From: Rhodamnia argentea
Taxonomy: Eukaryota > Streptophyta > Magnoliopsida > Myrtales > Myrtaceae
Direction: 5' to 3'
Assembly: GCF_020921035.1 (NCBI RefSeq)
Contig: NC_063151.1
Location: 8,742,001 to 8,806,000, forward strand
DNA length: 64,000 bases
This document shows, piece by piece, positions 1 through 52,242 of this stretch; position 1 is the stretch's first letter, and every line of letters begins with the position of its first letter. The translations under genes were made by a program, and so were the position numbers. The notes beneath the pieces were generated by a model that worked only from the letters and a program-made list of their open reading frames with translations, did no database searches and was not told the origin of the DNA.

Positions 1-3372
<3,372 letters not shown>

Positions 3373-4684
3373 CTTCTCTTCGGAGCGGTGGATCGATCGG
3401 GATCTGGAAAGCTGGTTTTCCTTCTGGTTGCAGGGCTTTGATGGCGATGAAATGTGGGGTGCGTGTGTTCTTGTTGGTCCGATGGCAGTTATATGCAGTG
3501 AGAGAAGAAAGGAGAGAGAGAGAACAGAGAGAAAGAGGCGGTTAAAAATTAAAATGGGAATAACAGAGGAGGATGCATACTTCTTCCAAATACATCGGAT
3601 ATAAAGCAGTTATGCCCATCCCATCGAGATGGATACCAATTCCTCGAATGACTCGAATCGGGTTCGTTATAGTTGGGCGATGTATTTCTTAACTCGAATG
3701 ACGGACGCCTCAATCGATTTACTTATGAAATTGACTCCGGCCACATGTATTGCTCAATCGAACGGGGCGCACCCACGCCCGAACCGACATTGATTCATGT
3801 TATTACCTCGTGTCGTGTCATCAAGGTACAGATAATCCACCTCTCGTCATTGCACGCAGCGGGCGCGCGCGAGGCTATGCCGTAAGGTTCGATCAGATCT
3901 ACCCCGAGACCCGTAGGATCGATGGCTCTTGTAGATTGGGCTCAGGATCACTCGCACGCAAAAAAAAAAAAAATTTGCTCCAGATCTACGTGATGGTTTT
4001 CCATACGAGGGGGCATATTGGTCGAGGGAGGTGGGAGCATGTGGACAAGGCATGCATGTGCGATGCATGTGAGGGCGAGATGGCACCCAGTTCATGAGGT
4101 CGCGTTTCCAGGCAAAAAAAATAATAATAATAATTGCATGAGATCGCCGCGATGGTCCAGTCTCGGATTCTCGCTTGGTCTTTTGCCATATTCATCATGT
4201 GCACACCGCAGGGGAAAGAAGCCAATACGATCTACTGCTATTTTTTTTTTTTTTTTGGGGGAGTCGTATATCTACTGCTGTTGAATGCTGTGGATCTTGC
4301 ATTCAAGTTTTGCTTATGGAAAGAGCTCAAGAGTAGGCCGAGGTGAGTTGTCCCATTGTGGGGCACATCGCAATGTGATGACTACGATGTGTTCGTTTTT
4401 ATGTCAAAGCGAAGCCATCGACAGTAACTCGAGAAACATAAATATTTATCTATGCTGAAAGCATCCTTGGAAGTTGGAGGTTGGAGAAATCTTCCAGTTT
4501 CTTTATAGATTATTCACACCTGATGGAAAATCATAGTAACAGTTATGCAAAGATACATGTGAATGAATCACCAATTCTTTTTTCGACTCTGCTTTTTTTG
4601 TTTTTGAAGATCTTTTTTCGAGATATATTATTCCTTTCGTCCCCTAATTTATGAGCAGACGACCTGCGGAAGCTTTCATTGTTT
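3373..4684. other. Tubulin 5' leader/promoter and intergenic DNA
   Basis: The first 170 bases left of the tubulin start codon are strongly pyrimidine-rich on the minus strand (GA repeats at 3500-3535 on the plus strand), typical of a plant 5' leader. A TATA-like TTTATATCC lies on the minus strand near 3603-3611. Farther right, two CATGCATG-like RY motifs (about 4047-4070) and short A and T runs occur. No gene is recognised. Confidence 0.4.
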
Positions 4685-5079: not shown

Positions 5080-8000
5080 CTATGTTTGAAGTTGTGCCTC
5101 GTTGCAAAATCTCTTGAAGTTCAAAGACTCATCCACCAAGAATTCCCTATGATAATCGGGACTTGGATTAGCAAAATCAGGTAGAAAGTTCACCCAGAAA
5201 GAACTTGATAGTTCAAGAAACTCACAGTATCCTCTCAGCCATCTGCGGTGCTTCCCATCTCGGACTCCACGGGAAATCGGTCAGAAGTGATGACCTGATT
5301 GGTGCTCCTTGGGAGTTAAAGTGCTGTAACCAATGGAAGTATTTTAGCTAGCAAAATGGTTTCCACTAGGAAGCATTCTGTAAATCCCCAGCAGAAATGG
5401 GGAAATAAACCTCTTCCTAAAGTTCCAAATGCAGAATCAAGAACTTCCAATGACCTACAAAGCTGCTGGTAATGCTTATTGCAGCAGAACAATCTACTAA
5501 ATAGTAAATCCGATCGACGTAAGAGAAGTTTCAAGAAGTATACGATCTGTTGTGGTGGTCTTTGTTAGAACTGGAAAAACTTTGCTCCTCCCATTATACA
5601 AGACTCACAACTCATTTAGATGAGATATGATGGACGGAAAAGTCAAATGTCAAGGAGAGAGAGAATCAGGGGATTGAAATATCTGAACCAAAGGCCATGT
5701 GTTCGTGCTCGTCAAGTTTTGTTTGAAGAATCTGAAATACTAGCAGTTATTCCAATATTGAGAGCTTTCCTTTCACGCCTTAAAGGGAGTCAAAAGCATG
5801 AAGTCTTAAAAAAGTTCATATGTGCTTCCTGCTGCACGCTACTCTCCAGAACATCCGCATGGGCTCACCACATAAGCCAAAGCCAAAATACATTAGGAAA
5901 TAACTTACCTGAGAACTCTGAAGCATCAGAGCTGGTTGTTGTTTTGGAAATTGTGTTGGAATGAAAAGGTGCACCTAGAGAAATATCACTCTTAGAAGTT
6001 TTCGATATCGTAGACAGAAGGCATGGAAACTAGAATGTTTTCAGAAAGAGAACTAGAATGTCAGGCAAATGTCATCTCAAAAGTTCACATTTTCAAAACA
6101 AATTCAAACTGTATACTTCACGCCATTGAGGACTCGTTTGATTGCTACTGTCTGAAGCAAAGAATATCTAACACAAAGTCATGCATTGTTCATCCTTTAT
6201 CACTAAAACCAAGATAATAGCACGTACTCAGATAAACATATTTTGAAGACATAGATGAACTACTGTTATTAACTAAAATAAAGAACACATTTCTGTTATA
6301 TATATGAGCAAAAAATTCACTTATGTTCTGGAACAGAACATTGAAATTGAAGCTTCATCACTAAATACTGCTCAAATAGTATCAATAGTATGACCTAATC
6401 TGTCCATTGATATAACTGTATTACAATACTCATGCACAGATCTTCGAGGTGAATCTACGATGTCTTCACCTGGTCAGCAGCCAAGACATTGGCAACGTTT
6501 CCAACCTACCACCACTTGAAGGCCAGTCCTCATATCTTAGTTCCAGATATTCAACTAGCACATCAGCAGCTGATGATCATCCTAACATTCAACAGCCCAT
6601 ACTTAAACATCACCAATTCTATCAATGACATGAGGACAGCCAATCAATCCGACCACTGAACATGCACTCCACCAGCTGTGACCATCTACTTTCATCGCTT
6701 TTAACATCTGGGCATTCATCTGCCAGTTCTATCTTTAAAAGCCACTTGCCATTCTGTGTGCAATGTCTATGAACTGCAGACTGGCCATTACCAGCCAATA
6801 GTTTAAAATCATTATCCTATGGACACTCAACAATATTTCAACTAATACAATCACTCTGGGTACAGAAGATGCAGAATAGCAGGAAAAGAAGATGATGCGG
6901 TATAATCATTCAGTACAGCCTTGTCTATGGAAAATGAATTATAACCACGACTCCATTATCTTGAAGTCATATGTTTTGTATGAAGGGATCATATGGGCGA
7001 AGTCAAAGAATGGAACTTTCGGTGCAGTCACTTTTCACCTTAGTTGCTGAGGTCTACTTCATACTATTCATCCATTTATTTTGCAGCTCCTTTAAACTTC
7101 TTTGCCAGATCTCACACCTCTACCAGTATCTCTCTCAAATCCTAATTCAGTTTTCACAATTCCATAGATGCCAAATTTTTACTGCAGTCACCGTTCACCT
7201 CAAACGGCAATGCCACCTTCAGACTGTTCATGCACTTATTTTGAAGTTCATGTGAAGCTTCTTTTACCAGAACTCTCCACATCTACTAGCGGGCTCTCTT
7301 AAATTCTCACTCACTTTTTTCCCAATTCCATAAACATAAATCATCTATGTCCACGTTGAAGCAGAGAACATTGGCTGGTTTTCTGAACTACTCTTATCAT
7401 TCTATGAGTATCAGACTACTTGTCTTCTTGTAGTTGGATCTCCAAGTTTTTGGAATGCTCCAAGTTCCACTTGAGCAGCATCCAACTTTTTTTTACTACT
7501 CAAGGCTTCGATACATTTTGAAATCGAGAAATTTCCACTGAAGCGGGTGCTATCCGAGACCAATAAAAGTGGCGACACAAAATAATCGTGACCTTGTGCA
7601 AAGTGGCTTAGTTATCATCCTAGGTTTCATTGACAGAAGGATATGCAGCAAATAACATGCGTTCTCTTGATGACCCATAATTCAACCTTTGTATTTAGTA
7701 CCTCAATGGATCCGAGCGTACGCATCCTAACCCCAGTTTTACAATAGCTACTTACTATGAGAACACTGCCTAAAACAAAACAGCTCAAACCTCTAGTCCA
7801 ATGATCCTCTAAAATAAAGAAGACATAGCGAAATATAAGTAATACCAGAAAGGTAAATACGCCAGAGGCTACCAGAACCGTAGCTTTCCTGCAAAAGACC
7901 TGGCAAAACAAGCCATGAGTATTAAGGAATCAGTCAAAACTATTGACATATCTGCCCTCACACATATTTGATCATGCATACCGGATCAGCTTCGATTGGT

Positions 8001-10978: not shown

Positions 10979-11109
10979 GGGCCGCGGCCCACTAGGTAGC
11001 CGGTCCGGACCGGCCCGGAATATTTGGGGGGGGGGGGGGGGGTGGCGCCGCACAATCGTAAGTTCAAAGGGGCGAAACCCTAATCCTCCATGACGAAAAG
11101 GCATATAAA
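10979..11109 (+). promoter_or_regulatory. snoRNA-type promoter: site II, telo-box and TATA box
   Basis: Plus-strand order: GGCCCAC at about 10986 (site II-like), a G run at 11027-11042, the telo-box AAACCCTAA at 11075-11083, and TATAAA at 11104-11109, followed by a CT-rich leader. The telo-box plus site II arrangement is well known in plant promoters of ribosomal-protein and snoRNA genes, which fits the box C/D snoRNA that begins 140 bases after the TATA box. Confidence 0.65.
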
Positions 11110-11247: not shown

Positions 11248-11356
11248 GGAGGGATTCAGATGATGAGTTTGGATTACAAATTTCTCACGACGGTCGTCTG
11301 AGACACGACAGTGTCGAGCACTGATGTAATGATCCAATGTTCCTGATGATCCCTCC
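11248..11356 (+). ncRNA. Box C/D snoRNA guiding 25S rRNA 2'-O-methylation
   Basis: A 109-nt sequence with all C/D parts. The terminal stem GGAGGGAT (11248-11255) pairs perfectly with ATCCCTCC (11349-11356). Box C ATGATGA is at 11260-11266, box D' CTGA at 11298-11301, a C'-like TGATGTA at 11322-11328 and box D CTGA at 11343-11346. Between D' and C' a small hairpin GACAC/GTGTC brings them together. Just 5' of D' lies TCTCACGACGGTC, the exact complement of the conserved 25S rRNA segment GACCGTCGTGAGA near the peptidyl-transferase centre. By the D+5 rule the methylated base would be the first C of that GACC. The element before box D (ATGATCCAATGTTC) has no target that I recognise. The upstream telo-box and TATA box suggest independent pol II transcription. 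Confidence 0.82.
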
Positions 11357-11565
11357 TTTCGCCGTTGCCCACGTAATCATCCATTACGAAATCTCTCCTC
11401 CTCCTCCTCCTCCCTCCTCCTCCTCGCAGCTTCTCTCTTTTATTTTTCGTTTCTTCTGGGCGGCGGTCTGTTTCCACCGCCCTCTGTATCGATAGCGTTT
11501 TGCGTTTTTTTTCTCAATCCGATCGTTCGTTTCTCTTTTGTGCTTTTCATTTTCGGTTGCGGAAT
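11357..11565 (+). other. Spacer between the two snoRNA candidates
   Basis: Contains a CTC/CTT-rich tract at about 11393-11435 and an inverted GGCGG/CCGCC pair at about 11460-11480. No box motifs in a convincing arrangement. Confidence 0.5.
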
Positions 11566-11665
11566 GGGCACGATGAGGAGTGTACGACGAATGCGATTCT
11601 GATGAGATCGAGAGATCCGTGAAAGCTGTTGTTAACATCACTAGTCCTTTTCATTCTGAGTGCCT
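11566..11665 (+). ncRNA. Possible second box C/D snoRNA
   Basis: Short terminal stem GGCAC (11567-11571) with GTGCC (11660-11664), box C-like ATGAGGA at 11573-11579 (one mismatch to consensus), CTGA at 11599-11602 as D', TGATGAG immediately overlapping as a weak C', and box D CTGA at 11656-11659 directly against the stem. Placement about 200 bases after the first snoRNA is what a polycistronic plant snoRNA cluster would show. No rRNA complementarity was recognised in either guide, so it may be an orphan or a chance match. Confidence 0.38.
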
Positions 11666-11784
11666 CGGGAAAAAAAAAGTCGAATGCCTCTGTCTTTCGC
11701 CATGGCTGAGTCGGGTCACCAAGGCAAGATTGTTGTTTCCTTTGATGTCCGATTCGATGATACGATCTCGGACATTGAAGAAGG

Positions 11785-12626: not shown

Positions 12627-15600
12627 TCAACTCTGAACCTGTATCTTGCCATCTGAGGAGCCGGCGAAAAGCATGCCTCCGTCCACATCCTCCGCCAAGG
12701 ATGTAATCTTGGCAGTGCTCCCTCCACTTCCCATCCTGATGGAGGCGACCCCCACAACTCTCTCTTTCAACCAGACCTCGATGGTCCCGCATTTCGTTGC
12801 TGTGAATATGAAGTCGTTGCTCACTGCCATCCGGTGGACGTCGAACCCTGTTGAGAGCGACCCGCTTATGGCCTTACTAGGCAGAGAGAATACCTTCCAC
12901 GCCCAAATTCAGAAACATAAGTTTTTAACTCATTTATCCGTCAAAATTTTATACGAATGGACGGTGGGACATGGAAGTCGTACCTTTCCTGCTGTTCCAT
13001 CCACAGATGAACCGCCGGCGAAGAGGAGGCTATCGTGAATAAGCAGGGAATAAATAGTTTGCTTCCCAAGCAACTTCCGAGCCCCCGAGTAGAACGTACA
13101 TGATGTCGACTTTCCCAAGTCCACCTCCTATGACATTGTAGCATGCTCGATGATTCTTGACTGTCGATTTGTTAGTTGCAAGAATTAGAACATGCAAGTA
13201 TATCTAGTGTGTACCTGGATGCTGTATCCAGAACAGCCGCAGTAGAGCTTACCCCCTGCCATGGCAAGGCACCGTGCCGTTTTGGTGAAATTTATATGCT
13301 TTGGAGTCCCTGACCAATTATATACCTGAAACCGGCATAAAGAGTTGGCTACAATCCTTGTCCTCGTGCCAATCAGATCCAACAAGTATGTGTTGAAAAG
13401 TAGGACTTGCCTTGACCCCGGTCCCTTGAGAAATGAAGCACGCGGTATACGCGTTGGCAGTCAGCTCGTACACCGGCTCTTTCACGTCATGGACCTGAAC
13501 ACATTGGACTTGCCTCAGGTTTGATTATCCATACCTGCAGAAGAAGAATGGAGCAGAGACCGTTTCAGCATTATAAGGCAACAGCAAAGTCTTATGTATC
13601 TGCCTAGCCGAGCGAGGCCTGCTTCGTGAACGAGGATACGAAGGTAAAGATCTAGATAATCTTTCTGTGAATTATATTCGTACCGTCAATCAAGTTCACG
13701 TCTATGAATTGTCCATGGACTGAATTACAAGAACGAAAATAGTGCAGTTTGAGATGATTTACCCTAATTGTCTTGTCCAGTGAACCGCTGTAGAGTCTGT
13801 CACCAGAGGGAGGAACGTGGAGGCATGTAACAGCTTTTGTGTGTTCGCGAACCTCTTGGATCAATCTCAAGACCCTCTTGCCAGCGTCCCAGACCTATGG
13901 CAAAGAAGACTTTGTTATGGAGGCCATCTCGTGATAGACTTAGCGCATAGCATGCTTGCTGTTGCGTGAAGGAAGACTAAGTCGGAAAACAGCGGTTCGC
14001 TTGGCATCTAACCTTAATGGTTCCATCAGAATGGCTGCTCAAAAGCAGTCCCTTCAAATGAAGCAAAGAGAGGACCTCGCCATTTGCAGACGATTCCAGT
14101 TCGATCACTTCACTGTAACTCCATAACTCTGTCTAAATTAGGACATTAGAAATCACTAGCTGCTCATTTGTATGTACAACCATTGATTCACGGCAAGCAG
14201 AATACGACCACTTACTGCATTCACAGATGTTAAGTTCATCAAGGCCTTCAATATATCAGCAACTAATACGGAATGCTTTTTCAGCTTTCTCAGCGTCTTG
14301 TAGATGGATTTTGCGTACATTCCCAGTTCTTCAAGTGCCGCTGAAAATTCGATAGAAACATGTCAATTTTTGCAGCGTTCTAAATGTGAGAGCATTAACC
14401 GCACTATGGCGGATCGTACCTGGGTCACTGATGAAAGTCTTTATTGCTAAGGTGGCCAAAATCTTCTCCTCTAAGTTCTTAGATGACTGGAGCACATTTA
14501 TGAACTCGTCGAGGAAAGACTTTCGAGCAGCACTTTTCATGCCGGTATCGGGAAGAACAGAAAGCATGTAAGTGAGCCATGTGGCAATCACGAGGCATGA
14601 TTTCGCCATTTCAATGGAATTACTTTTGAGGCATTCCTTTAGAGATTTGAAAATGCATCCCTTTTCATGGTTGCAAAGGACAAAGGCCACTCTCCTCTCC
14701 CACGAATTTTCAGCTTTCTCTTCCTCTTCCTGCACAGGGGAGAAGCTTTCAGAATTTTGGAAAGTGCATATGAGTCTACATAAACTACATGACAACTATA
14801 CTCAAACCATTGTCTCTGCCAATTCATTCTCATGCATTGTTGGGCTTTCCACCTTCATTAGAGCATTGAATGGTTGATCGAACCCCGCAACCTTCAGCAA
14901 CCAAGCTTCGGTGCAGGATTTTCCCGAGGCGGTCAAGCGTCCCGAAAGACACAATAGAGCATTCAAAGCCATTATCTGGGAATTGGGAAAATCCTTCTTC
15001 TGCAGTGCCTCAATCAGGGCCTCTATTGCTTCTTCCCTGTAAATGCTCATGTTCCTAGGTTCTCCCTGGAAAAGTGAAAAACCACTGAATATGTGAGTTC
15101 TAAGTTCAATCTGTACCTGCGATTCCTGGTGCAGACGTTGTTTGACAGGAAGAAGTACTAACCAGGAGATCAAGCATAAGAAGAAGTGTAGCAATAGCTG
15201 GTTGTTGCTCCATAGGAGCCATTTGAAGATGCACCAGGAGGGTGTGCATGGTGCTAAATGCACCTTCTTCTTTGATCAACTGCAATATCTGGTTGCAGAT
15301 TGTTCTTCTGAGACAACAAAATCATGTATTAATGCTTAAAATGATGAGAAAAGTGCTCAAGATGGTAACATAGGGGTGGCCCCATAGAAAGTTTTCCTGT
15401 AAGTCCTCTGATGCCTCTGGAATCGAAATCATTACATAAGGGTCTATTTTATCAGACCATATACGTGAACCATTACAACAATGAAACATGTGGCACTGAT
15501 AAATTAGAAACTGAACTTTCCTCAGGTCCGGACATTAGTTACTTTTTAGTCAACACGAAGAAGCTCGTCTCCCATGAGGACTTAAGTAAATCATTCAAAT

Positions 15601-18600
15601 GGCAAAGCTCGAACATGTGAAGCTTGCATGACAAGAGAATGCTAACATAATTTAGATTGGTACACTCCAGCAGAAAGTACCTGTCTGTTTGGACTAGTTC
15701 CAGCAGAAAGTCTATGCAAATGCCTTTAACAGTGTCATTTCCAGCATGAAATAGGTCAAGGACTGAAGACAATTCGATTCTGTTTGCTATCAAATTCCTG
15801 CAAGTTCTATCAGCATGTATACAGCACAGTAGTATGGAGATAACTGACTGCCTTCCTTCAACCTTGTCCATGTACTTGATCAGGCCCGGAACTCCATTTG
15901 CCAAAATGACACTTTGAGCATTGGCGGACCGGCTGTTTTCATCCCCTCCCATCAAAATCTGCTCGAGCATTGCTATAGCAGCATCCTTTGGTTCGATCAA
16001 CAGTTGGAGATCATTCAGATCTTCGCTTTTGTTAAGTATTAACTGCACAAGGGAGGGTACGAGGTCGTTGTCTGAAAGCTGGACGTATGCGGGCCTCAGT
16101 TGGTATATGAGGACAGCAGCCTCCGCAAGACCGTTCTTGAGTAATTCGGCCAGGCAATCAAAATCAGAGTCAACACTAGTGAGGGTCTCTCCAATAGATT
16201 CGTTGACATATATTAGCTCCGAGAGAATGTAAATTGAATATCTGAGAACCTCCCTATTCAGTGAGGCCGATAATATTTCGACTAACCCATTCATAGTCAT
16301 AGGTTTGGACAAGTATGAAGGAATTGCAGGATTGCCTTTTGTCTCCTTCCAGGTCTTGGCAATTGTCAGGACTGCCGCCTCACATTCTTGCAAATTCTCT
16401 GATGTACAAAGGCATGAGACATGTGGTTTTAGCCCATTTATGATTGTCTCCGTAGCGGCTTGAGATATGACACTCGTTGGGGATGTAGCTACTACTCCTT
16501 GTGTAAATCTTTTGCTCCTTGGATTCATGAACCGCTCTGAGTTCGCGTTAGTGGGGAAGTCGAATGTCCTGGACACATTCGAAGGTTCAAGGTTTTCGGT
16601 CATAGAGTAAGAACTCATCGAGTTTCTTGGTGTTTCTGCATGTGAAAAATCTTGGGCAATATCAGGATGCTGTTCTTTCCAAGATGTGATTAGTCTTTTA
16701 AGGACGTAGTTTGTCTTGGGCAATGCGCTCGCCGAGAGAGCTTGCCGAGTGATGGGACAAGTCGTGTTTCCCCTCTCTATCCATTCTTGAATTGCTCTTC
16801 TTTCATATGTCTGTCCAGTTTCAAGGGTAACCGGATCGCTGAAAAGCTGGCCTGTGATTGCGCAGACAAAATCTTTGGGCGGTTTTGTTCGACAAGTTTG
16901 ATTGTCAGACAGTGGGAGCGAAACGTAGCTATTGTTATCGTCATCACTTTCAGCATGAAAACTGCAGAATCACAAAAGAGTAACGAGCATAAGGATTACT
17001 TTCCCGAAGTCATCGATTTTGATGACAGTACTTGTCAGGGTCCTGCATTTCAAGTTGGTGAAGTTGACACAAGAAATCTGCAGATTATTACTTCCCAATG
17101 ACACATTCTTACCTATTGTCAAATGGTTGGCCTCTCACATAGTCATTGTTTATACTCTCTGATCTGCTGCTGCTTTTCCTGTGGCTTCTTTGTGATAACT
17201 GTCTTGAGAAACCAGTTTTAGTAAGAATTCAGCATTTCGATTTATACCCCAAGAAGGACATGAACACAAATCTGAAGGGGTCTAGATTGTGCAAAAGAAA
17301 ACATACAATGGCTTCACCATCGGAATTGGCAGAATTCATACTGAAATCACCATTTAGGCGTGGCGACTGAGGCAAAGAGTTGGGCATTGTGGAATCTTGG
17401 TTGCGTCCTGAAAGCAGGCGCAATACTACTGCCGGTTCCTTTCTGTCGTATGTATCGGCTTTTGGAGATGAAACCTTAGAAGTAGTTTTGGGGGAGTCAA
17501 CAGGAGAGAACATTTTGGGACTCGGTCGGCCTTTTGCTGGATAATGAAGTCCTTCGGGCTCGTTGCTCTTTTCCTCGGCGATTCTCATACTCTTGAGAGA
17601 GATTAGCCTGCGATTCTTATATTTCGGAAACCATGGAGGGATCGTCATTCTCGGATTCAGAATTGTTGTCGTTCTTGTCAGTGAGCTCTTCCTGGGATTG
17701 CATCCAACATTCGAGTCATAATCATATTAAAATTTGATGAAATTCAGAGAGCTGGCGGAGCGTAAGAGCGTATCAAGTGACGGTAGGATGTTCCGACTTA
17801 CGTGATGCTTGAGGGCGGCATACTCCTCCATATCCTCGGAAATACTGGAGGCAACGTTTCTTAATCTGTGGAAGACATCAGGAAGAAAGAATATATACTG
17901 AAATGCAATATGAATGCCAAACAATAGTGCACTAGTTAGAATAACAACTAACCTGCTCGCTGGTCTCGCGCCATCATTTGATTTCAGGATCAGGGAAAAC
18001 CCGGCACTCTTGGGCAGAATCGGACCGAATTTCATGTAATCTGGAATGGAACTGCTCAACTCATGCAAGGGAGTCATTGGGGGTTCTGCGATCGGGAACA
18101 TGGGCATTGCCTTATTGCCGCTGCTTGAGTCGCAGCTCATGCAGTCCCTATAGTACTTGGCATAAAGCCTCGTATTCTCATCCAAGGACTCTCGATAGAG
18201 CTGCTCGAGCTTCTGCATCTTCTCCATTTGGTCGGGCCTCATCGAGAAGACAACTGACTCGTTGAGGAACTGGTCCACATCAGCCATGAAGGACATGTCA
18301 GAGGCATCCGGAATAGCTTCCATCACGAGCCTGTGCCTCGCCTCTGTGTACCATCCGACGATCGAGCTCATGTGCGGAAGAAACAGGTCCTCCCAAAGAT
18401 CGGGAGCAAAATCGATCCGCGAAAAGAAAGGGTCCACAATGAACATCTCAATGACATGATAAACGGACTCGCCATCCTCGTTCCTCAGCATCCACAAGTA
18501 CGAAAGATTGAGATGCGCCCAGGCAGAGAGGTAGTAATTGGGGACTCCGGCGGTCTTCTGCTGAGAGTTCAACATCGCACACACTTGCAGCATCTTCTCG

Positions 18601-18896
18601 GCGTAGTCCAACCGGGCAAGCTTCGTCTCCATGTTGGAGGTATTGATAGCTTCTTCGAGGGCATCTATCCCCCAATCCAGATTCGCCAGCACCGCCTGAT
18701 CAGAATATCGAACCTCGGTGTCCATGTGGTTGCTACCTCCCTCAGCCGCCAATCTCTCTCCACACTGTTCCTTCTGGCGTATCCTCTGCTCCTGGTTGAT
18801 CAGCCGATCTCGGATAAAACTCCCGACGTTGGTGATCAATAACTCAACTATGTCCATGTCCTTCTGGTCCATTGAGAATCTGTAATTGCCAGACAT
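12627..18896 (-). CDS. LIN: U-box/WD40 E3 ubiquitin ligase, LIN/CERBERUS type, one frame break
   Basis: Putative E3 ligase; the legume orthologues LIN and CERBERUS are needed for rhizobial infection-thread growth and also act in mycorrhiza. Fifteen exons: 18896-17953, 17865-17802, 17687-17307, 17198-17113, 16961-15681, 15307-15163, 15065-14808, 14729-14420, 14340-14216, 14132-14013, 13894-13763, 13534-13411, 13325-13215, 13127-12984, 12893-12627, about 1496 residues, as in legumes (near 1480). Order: conserved N-terminal domain (to about 336), Ser/Pro-rich linker, U-box (FVCAITGQLFSDPVTLETGQ..) near 515-590, armadillo-like helices, WD40 repeats (GCSGYSIQEVDLGKS, GTIEVWLKERV). Intron 12 has a GC donor (AAG|GCAAGT). 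Exon 12 is 124 bp where 123 is expected: an extra base near 13513 shifts the frame and meets a stop in the WD40 part. Exon 3 needs the inner of two AG acceptors four bases apart to stay open. Start: ATG at 18896; an upstream TTG is in frame only. Confidence 0.92.
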
Positions 18897-20130
18897 CTTA
18901 TTCAAACGCTGAACGAATCGTATGAGTCTTCTTCGGCCACCTTCCTCGTCCCTCCCTCTCAGGCTACTCTGATCGGGACATTGGTCCAGACAGTTTGGAA
19001 CGATCCTCTGCTAAGTCAAGCCTTATTCTCTAGCCTACCATATAACGAAACTGCACCATGAGAACTACGGGTTTCTTCACCCACTGATCAGTCCGTCCCC
19101 TCGGCGTGATCTATACAAAGCACAAAAGTTCATGCAGACACGAACTCTGCCGGAGATACAAAAGCACCAGGGCGATTCACCATTCGCTAACTTAACGGAA
19201 AACAGGGTCAGAAACAATGAGGGAGCAATCTTGAGTCTTTTCGCAAACTACCCAGAAATGGAAACGGAAACGAAGACGAAAAGGGATTATAGAAAGCCAT
19301 TACTCCGTCCCATTGGCGACTTCATTCACGACAGTTTCCATGGAAATGAATGTTGGAAACATTCAACGCGCGAGAGAGAGAGAGACAGAGGGAGTAGCTG
19401 AGCCGGCTTTGGCTGGTGGCGAGGCGATGACGGTGGAAGCATTGGAGTGGACTGATTATGTGTTAAATATAAAGATTAGATTGGTTGTCACGATTTGACT
19501 ACTAATTTAGTTGGTTAGTTGACGAGGGGAAGTCATTGCCATTTGGCTTCATCGTTGTCCGGCTCGAATCAACGTCGGACCAGACCAGATGATATGACCG
19601 GGCGATCCTTTGTTTATTGAACCAACAAACCCCTGCTGCTCACTTGGATTTTATCTTTTGCCTCGACGCTTTTTGGCGCGAAGCGAATAATCCTAGGCCG
19701 GACTAGATTTTGCGCCCGGCCCATGATGAATAGCTTTGGGCCGGGCTACTGATCAGGCTTGGCCCCGCACTCTCCCACCCATGGGCCTGACAATACTCCT
19801 TTCACATAAGGAACGAAAAACAAAAAGGCCGGGGGAGGTGCGGGCAAGGCAAGCCACTCCCTCTGAACGCTGCCATAGGCATGCGACGCTTGCTACTGAA
19901 GTAGTTACTCGCAGCCCAAAGATCCGATGTTGGCGGACCCATCGCTGCAACCTCACCGAGATGCTAGCAATCAAGAAATATCCTCACACGATACACGTCG
20001 CTGTTGGGCACCACAGCTCGAACGGTTCATACGTCTCGCTCGCGGCGTGAATTAGAGCGGTGCTATTGCAGAAGGCACACGACCCTTTTTACTACTTGTC
20101 CAATCATCTCACTGGTTATTAGGATGATGC
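18897..20130. other. LIN upstream region and intergenic DNA
   Basis: No gene recognised. Contains a GA microsatellite at about 19370-19390 and a cluster of GGCCCGGCC/TGGGCC motifs at 19715-19790. An open frame at 19736-20050 has no recognisable homology. Confidence 0.45.
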
Positions 20131-38163: not shown

Positions 38164-38248
38164 TGGGCCAAGCTGGATTCGAACCAACATAGATATATTG
38201 CCAACAAATTTACAGTCCGTCCCCATTAACCGCTTGGGCATCGACACC
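38164..38248 (-). pseudogene. trnY-GUA: Degraded plastid-type tRNA-Tyr (GUA) in nuclear DNA
   Basis: The minus strand reads TCGATGCCCAAGCGGTTAATG..., then GACTGTAAATTTG (anticodon GTA) and GGTTCGAATCCAGCTTGG, closely matching plastid trnY-GUA. Differences are mostly C-to-T or G-to-A, plus an extra T near the 5' end, the usual decay of methylated organelle inserts. The flanking sequence to about 38345 may also be organelle DNA. Not expected to be functional in the nucleus. Confidence 0.72.
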
Positions 38249-49016: not shown

Positions 49017-49023
49017 TATAAAA
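49017..49023 (+). promoter_or_regulatory. TATA box of the thaumatin-like gene
   Basis: TATAAAA, 182 bases before the start codon, followed by a GAA-rich then CTT-rich leader. Confidence 0.6.
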
Positions 49024-49204
49024 TGTCGATTGGCCGGCACATATCTCACTGTCGTTGCGACCCCCAGAATCTCCCACTACTCCTGAAGAAGAAGAAGAAG
49101 AGGAGGAGGAGGCGGAGGGGAACGCGGAGATTGCTCCATCCAACCACCACGAGTCTTACTTCTTCTTCTTCTTCCTCTTCTTCAATTATACAGGCGCGGC
49201 ATTG

Positions 49205-51040
49205 ATGGCGAGATTCTCGCCATTGATATCTCTGCCATGGCTGCTCGTTTCCGTAACGTTCTTGGCAGGTATTCCCATCAACATTCAACAGCACAGCCTG
49301 CCCTTTTGTGACTTCTCCGTTTTTGATTTGTTTCTTTTTCGCCTTTTGCTCTTTTCAGTTGATGCGACGACCTTCACGTTAGTGAACAAGTGCGAGTACA
49401 CCATATGGCCGGGCGTCCTCGCCAACGCCGGCGAACCTCCCCTCTCCACCACCGGCTTCGCGCTCCAGAAGGGCGAGTCCCGTCCCCTCTCCGCCCCCGC
49501 CGGCTGGGGCGGCCGCTTCTGGGCCCGGACCCGCTGCGCCCAGGACCCCGCCACCGGCGAGCTCTCCTGCCTCACCGGCGACTGCGGCTCCGGCCAGCTC
49601 GAGTGCGGCGGTGGCGGCGCCGTCCCTCCCGCCACCCTCGCCGAGTTCAAGCTCGACGGAGACGGCGGCCTCGACTTCTTCGACGTGAGCCTCGTCGACG
49701 GCTACAACCTGCCCGTGCTGGTGGCGCCCAAGGGGGGCGGCGGCGGGGGGCGGGGGAACTGCACGAGCGTCCGGTGCGCGGTCGACCTCGAAGGTGCGTG
49801 CCCTTCGGAGCTGAGGGTGACGGCCAGGGGTGACGGGTCGGGGGTGGCCGCGTGCAAGAGCGCGTGCGACGCGTTCCGGCAGCCGCAGTACTGCTGCAGC
49901 GGCTCGTACAGCAGCCCTCAGGCGTGCAAGCCGACGTCGTACTCGGAGGTGTTCAAGAGCGCTTGCCCGCAAGCGTACAGCTACGCCTACGACGACGAGA
50001 CGAGCACGTTCACGTGCGCCGGCGCGGATTACGTCATCACCTTCTGCCCGACTCCCAGCACCAGGTGACTTTACCCTTCAGTCCTCGTTACTCGATGTGT
50101 CGTCGTACAAAGCTTTAAAAAGTCATCGACAGAGCGAAAAAGTCGCAAGAATTCCAATCATGCATAATGCGTCATATTTGCTCCATAAAAACCTTCAAAT
50201 TATTTTTATTATGACATATTTACTTTAAAAATATAGTGACGTACCTAAGTACCTACGTGACATATTTTTTTTTTCCATCAAGATTCCATTTAATGAAATT
50301 TTAGACTAAAATAACGTCATTTTTATTGTCTCATATCAAGACTATTTATTTTCTGATGTCTATATAAACAGATTTTTAACGATTTTTCTTTGAAAAACTC
50401 TAATCATACATGTATAAGTTTAAGAATTTTGATGCCACGAAAAAAAAATTTAAGGTAAATGTATCACAGTGAGCATAATTTAAGATTTTTGGTGACTTTT
50501 TTCCCTCAAAAGAAACATAGTATGAAAGGGAAGAGAGCTAGGCTACAGGGCACATTGGAGTTATCATGGATTTGAGAGGGCAGTTTCGGCAATTCGAGGG
50601 AAAGTATTTTCGTCCACTCGAGAGACGTGGGTAAAAAGGCAAGATGCGAAAGAGGTGCGTGCGGCTTGTCGTTATTGTCACGCTTTGTTAGTGTAGTGGG
50701 CACTGGGCAATTGAGGAAGGACCAAAAATATCTTGCGGTAGATATTGCATTGCTATTTGCTCTTTAGTGATGAGGAAATCGACAGCTCCCCAGCTGGTCA
50801 TTTAACTAAATGTGGTTGTTGGTGGTTTTTTCCGGGGGCAGCCAAAAGGCAGCTTCCTCACAGGACCAGACTCCGGGGGCCGCCGCCACGGACACGCCTC
50901 TCATCAACGGCACCATGGTCTATGTCGGCGTGGCGGAGGCGAGCCGCGCGTCGCGCTCCGCCCGTACCCAGGTGCCCGCGGTCGGCCTGGTCGGCGTGGC
51001 GGTGTCCACATGGCGGTTGCGGCATCTCCTTTCGGCATGA
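49205..51040 (+). CDS. Thaumatin-like protein (PR-5 family) with C-terminal anchor-like tail
   Basis: Secreted PR-5-type protein; family members bind beta-glucans and act in defence or cell-wall processes. Three exons: 49205-49268, 49359-50064, 50842-51040, phases agreeing, 322 residues. Exon 1 gives the signal peptide (LISLPWLLVSVTFLAG). Exon 2 gives the whole thaumatin domain with the sixteen cysteines of the family, from FTLVNKCEYTIWPG to ITFCP, and the acidic-cleft residues (WARTRC, LAEFKLD, FDVSLVDGYNLPV). Exon 3 adds SQKAASSQDQ..., a NGT N-glycosylation site and a hydrophobic end (VGLVGVAVSTWRL), as in plant thaumatin-like proteins with a predicted GPI anchor. If intron 2 were not removed, the frame would end at 50068 (..PSTR). 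Exon 2 is extremely GC-rich, so long open frames occur on both strands. Confidence 0.93.
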
Positions 51041-52158: not shown

Positions 52159-52242
52159 TGTCAGAAGTGGGATTTGAACCCACGCCCTCTCACGAGGACC
52201 AGAACTTGAGTCTGGCGCCTTAGACCACTCGGCCACCCTGAC
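52159..52242 (-). tRNA. trnL-CAA: tRNA-Leu (CAA)
   Basis: 84 nt, nuclear type. Minus strand starts GTCAGGGTGGCCGAGTGG (D arm with box A), anticodon stem-loop CCAGA-CTCAAGT-TCTGG (anticodon CAA), a long variable arm (TCCTCGTGAGAGGGC) as class II tRNAs have, T arm GTGGGTTCAAATCCCAC (box B) and acceptor end CTTCTGAC-A. No intron. A TTTT pol III terminator follows within 6 bases (ACAAGTTTTCC). Confidence 0.96.

Follow-up and report, generated by a model that had tools for sequence, protein, structure and literature searches.

The 64,000-nucleotide stretch of Rhodamnia argentea DNA analysed here (the window) carries at 11248-11356 a box C/D small nucleolar RNA (snoRNA) gene which, judged from its sequence, is the plant version of U35, a very old and well-known snoRNA that marks one spot of the large-subunit ribosomal RNA (rRNA). 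The Rfam model RF00328 (U35/snoZ161_228), whose gathering score is 45, covers 11253-11351 with 70.6 bits and is matched over positions 1-93 of its 93; owing to this match the candidate reading of a novel snoRNA was rejected. The original prediction had described a complete box C/D snoRNA here and proposed an Rfam search, which returned the above match, and its 8-bp stem, box C, 13-nucleotide antisense element, D′ and D were all found in place. Its observation stood and its interpretation was supported in part. The snoRNA, already known, was correctly spotted and over-rated.

Structure and copy number of the U35 gene

As listed in Table 1, box C and box D are joined by a perfect terminal stem of 8 bp, the arrangement by which a box C/D snoRNA is recognized, and the guide upstream of D′ obeys the rule that the fifth base from the box (D+5) faces the target. 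When both strands of the window were searched mechanically for boxes C and D closed by a perfectly paired terminal stem of 8 bp or longer, 11248-11356 was the one place found, and none of 100 dinucleotide-shuffled windows contained the two boxes with a stem of at least 8 bp. The 109-nucleotide RNA gave a fold z-score of -3.2, with none of 200 shuffles equally good, a value computed on the free RNA, whose fold is not that of the ribonucleoprotein particle.

We considered whether 11248-11356 could be a decayed copy of U35, with the functional gene elsewhere in the genome. This is barely credible, as boxes C, D′ and D, the stem and the guide are all intact and RF00328 gave just one match in the 346.7-Mb assembly, where 55 of 52,006 candidates were scored; because of this number, the one match does not amount to proof of a single copy.

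The D′ guide and its predicted target base

The D′ guide pairs exactly with rRNA over 13 bp, beginning at position 3 from D′, and places D+5 on the first C of GACC. In a shuffling control one of 200 shuffled guides reached the real score of 13, an oddity of this control. In the rRNA operon of strain SK1144 the target column corresponds to E. coli 23S position 2590. Table 2 of PMC8053127 equates E. coli 2552 with Arabidopsis 2922, an offset of 370, and therefore E. coli 2590 corresponds to 25S C2960. The same number, 2960, was obtained by counting along an rRNA fragment with its A-loop U taken as U2922, and under this anchoring the bases that fall at 2935, 2947 and 2949 agree with the A, A and C of the published sites. 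The fragment (L002) comes from a viral-collection record which opens with eukaryotic-looking large-subunit rRNA, as judged by eye; about 120 rRNA-like bases are followed by other DNA, and the record is a contamination or a chimera. C2960 was mapped in Arabidopsis by RiboMeth-seq and has U35 as its guide in Table 1 of PMC8053127. For the R. argentea snoRNA the equivalent of 25S C2960 is predicted from base pairing only, in the rRNA of other organisms. The AtU35 site is given as Cm2949 in excerpts of PMC3511168 and PMC6461891, which we take as an older numbering, distinct from C2949 of PMC8053127; the numbering of the yeast counterpart likewise varies, Cm2956 in PMC3511168 versus Cm2959 in PMC2656528.

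The spacer before box D has room for a guide, and the original prediction had proposed that it could direct an unreported modification. We regard an additional methylation directed by it as very unlikely, since its best pairing in the non-plant, incomplete rRNA examined was reached by 174 of 200 shuffled guides and Table 1 of PMC8053127 gives a single site, C2960, for U35; the proposal was rejected within that rRNA.

Upstream elements, the downstream element and other features

The claimed telo-box and TATA box were indeed found, and together with a Site II element all lie upstream of U35, a layout expected before the first snoRNA of a telo-box/Site II polycistron. Of 25,440 positions sampled over the two strands, 46 had a telo-box 5′ of TATAAA and a Site II within 300 upstream bases; 36 of the 46 were on the plus strand, and the U35 locus itself was included in the sample.

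On the strand of U35, and separated from it by 212 bases, lies a second sequence similar to snoZ162 (RF00329). With 37.7 bits it falls under the gathering score of 45, and its expectation value (E) is 2e-5 in 1.3 kb and 0.00099 across the 64 kb, against 0.54 for the next match under its gathering score in the window. Its alignment shows the conserved D guide and terminal stem of RF00329; the stem is a perfect 5 bp, box D and the D guide are as in the family consensus, and box C, ATGAGGA, departs from RTGATGA but resembles the RF00329 consensus, while the middle part is longer and diverged. Its fold was not better than that of shuffles, and its guides did not exceed shuffled guides in non-plant rRNA. 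This weaker snoRNA-like element just downstream may have its promoter in common with U35.

Table 1. Coordinates of U35, its parts and the neighbouring elements in the window
Feature	Position	Strand	Remarks
Site II element, GGCCCA on + (TGGGCC on -)	10986..10991	-	definition TGGGCY from an excerpt of PMC4660826
Telo-box AAACCCTAA	11075..11083	+	definition from an excerpt of PMC4660826
TATA box TATAAA	11104..11109	+	read in sequence
Box C/D snoRNA (U35)	11248..11356	+	RF00328 match and stem read in sequence
Box C ATGATGA	11260..11266	+	read in sequence
D′ guide, 13 nucleotides	11283..11295	+	pairs perfectly with GACCGTCGTGAGA of eukaryotic large-subunit rRNA; predicted to aim at 25S C2960
Box D′ CTGA	11298..11301	+	read in sequence
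Small hairpin GACAC/GTGTC, D′-C′ interval	11302..11315	+	stem in Rfam alignment and in fold
Degenerate box C′ TGATGTA	11322..11328	+	TGATG at 11322 read; probable C′
Second spacer before box D	11329..11342	+	no target in non-plant, incomplete rRNA
Box D CTGA	11343..11346	+	read in sequence
snoZ162-like element (RF00329)	11564..11666	+	below gathering score; boxes read

Elsewhere in the window we noticed exons of tubulin (2899-3609, minus strand), a LIN-like U-box ubiquitin ligase (15539-19010, minus) and a thaumatin-family protein (49022-50068, plus), a transfer RNA (tRNA), tRNA-Leu(CAA), at 52159-52242 (minus), and, at 38164-38247 (minus), a less convincing resemblance to tRNA-Tyr(GTA), scored at 36.9 bits. 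An Rfam match to psbT-asRNA (60 bits) at 7430-7467 (plus) has nuclear-looking surroundings and is possibly a short plastid-derived insertion. Among the comparison records, four filed as viral or prokaryotic (L025-L028) contain eukaryotic rRNA according to Rfam and are contaminations or chimeras. At the start of assembly contig C59 (L009) a motif which we take to be that of 5S rRNA occurs at least six times on the minus strand, perhaps a 5S array.

Relatives of U35

The R. argentea gene matches the model of plant U35/snoZ161_Z228 (RF00328, clan CL00056) along its whole length and shares with it the boxes, the D′ guide, the target C and a D′-C′ hairpin; it departs from the consensus by a few extra bases in the D′-C′ region and in its second spacer, neither of which matters. 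In an excerpt of PMC3511168, AtU35 is placed in RF00328 and CL00056 beside human U35 (Cm4506) and yeast SnR73, and human U35/SNORD35 (RF00211) and snR73 (RF01207) share both the clan and the equivalent-target row with it. C4506 of human SNORD35 is also matched to Arabidopsis U35 in PMC6461891. Similar pairings extend to Plasmodium PFS17, which aims at the equivalent of yeast Cm2959 and is paired with snR73, U35 and AtU35 in PMC2656528, and to the guide of Neurospora 26S Cm2917, paired with snR73/U35 in PMC2780460. The gene context, on the other hand, differs, human U35 being intron-encoded, yeast snR73 polycistronic and Arabidopsis AtU35 clustered (PMC2656528). U35 of R. argentea is an ordinary, conserved and already known snoRNA.
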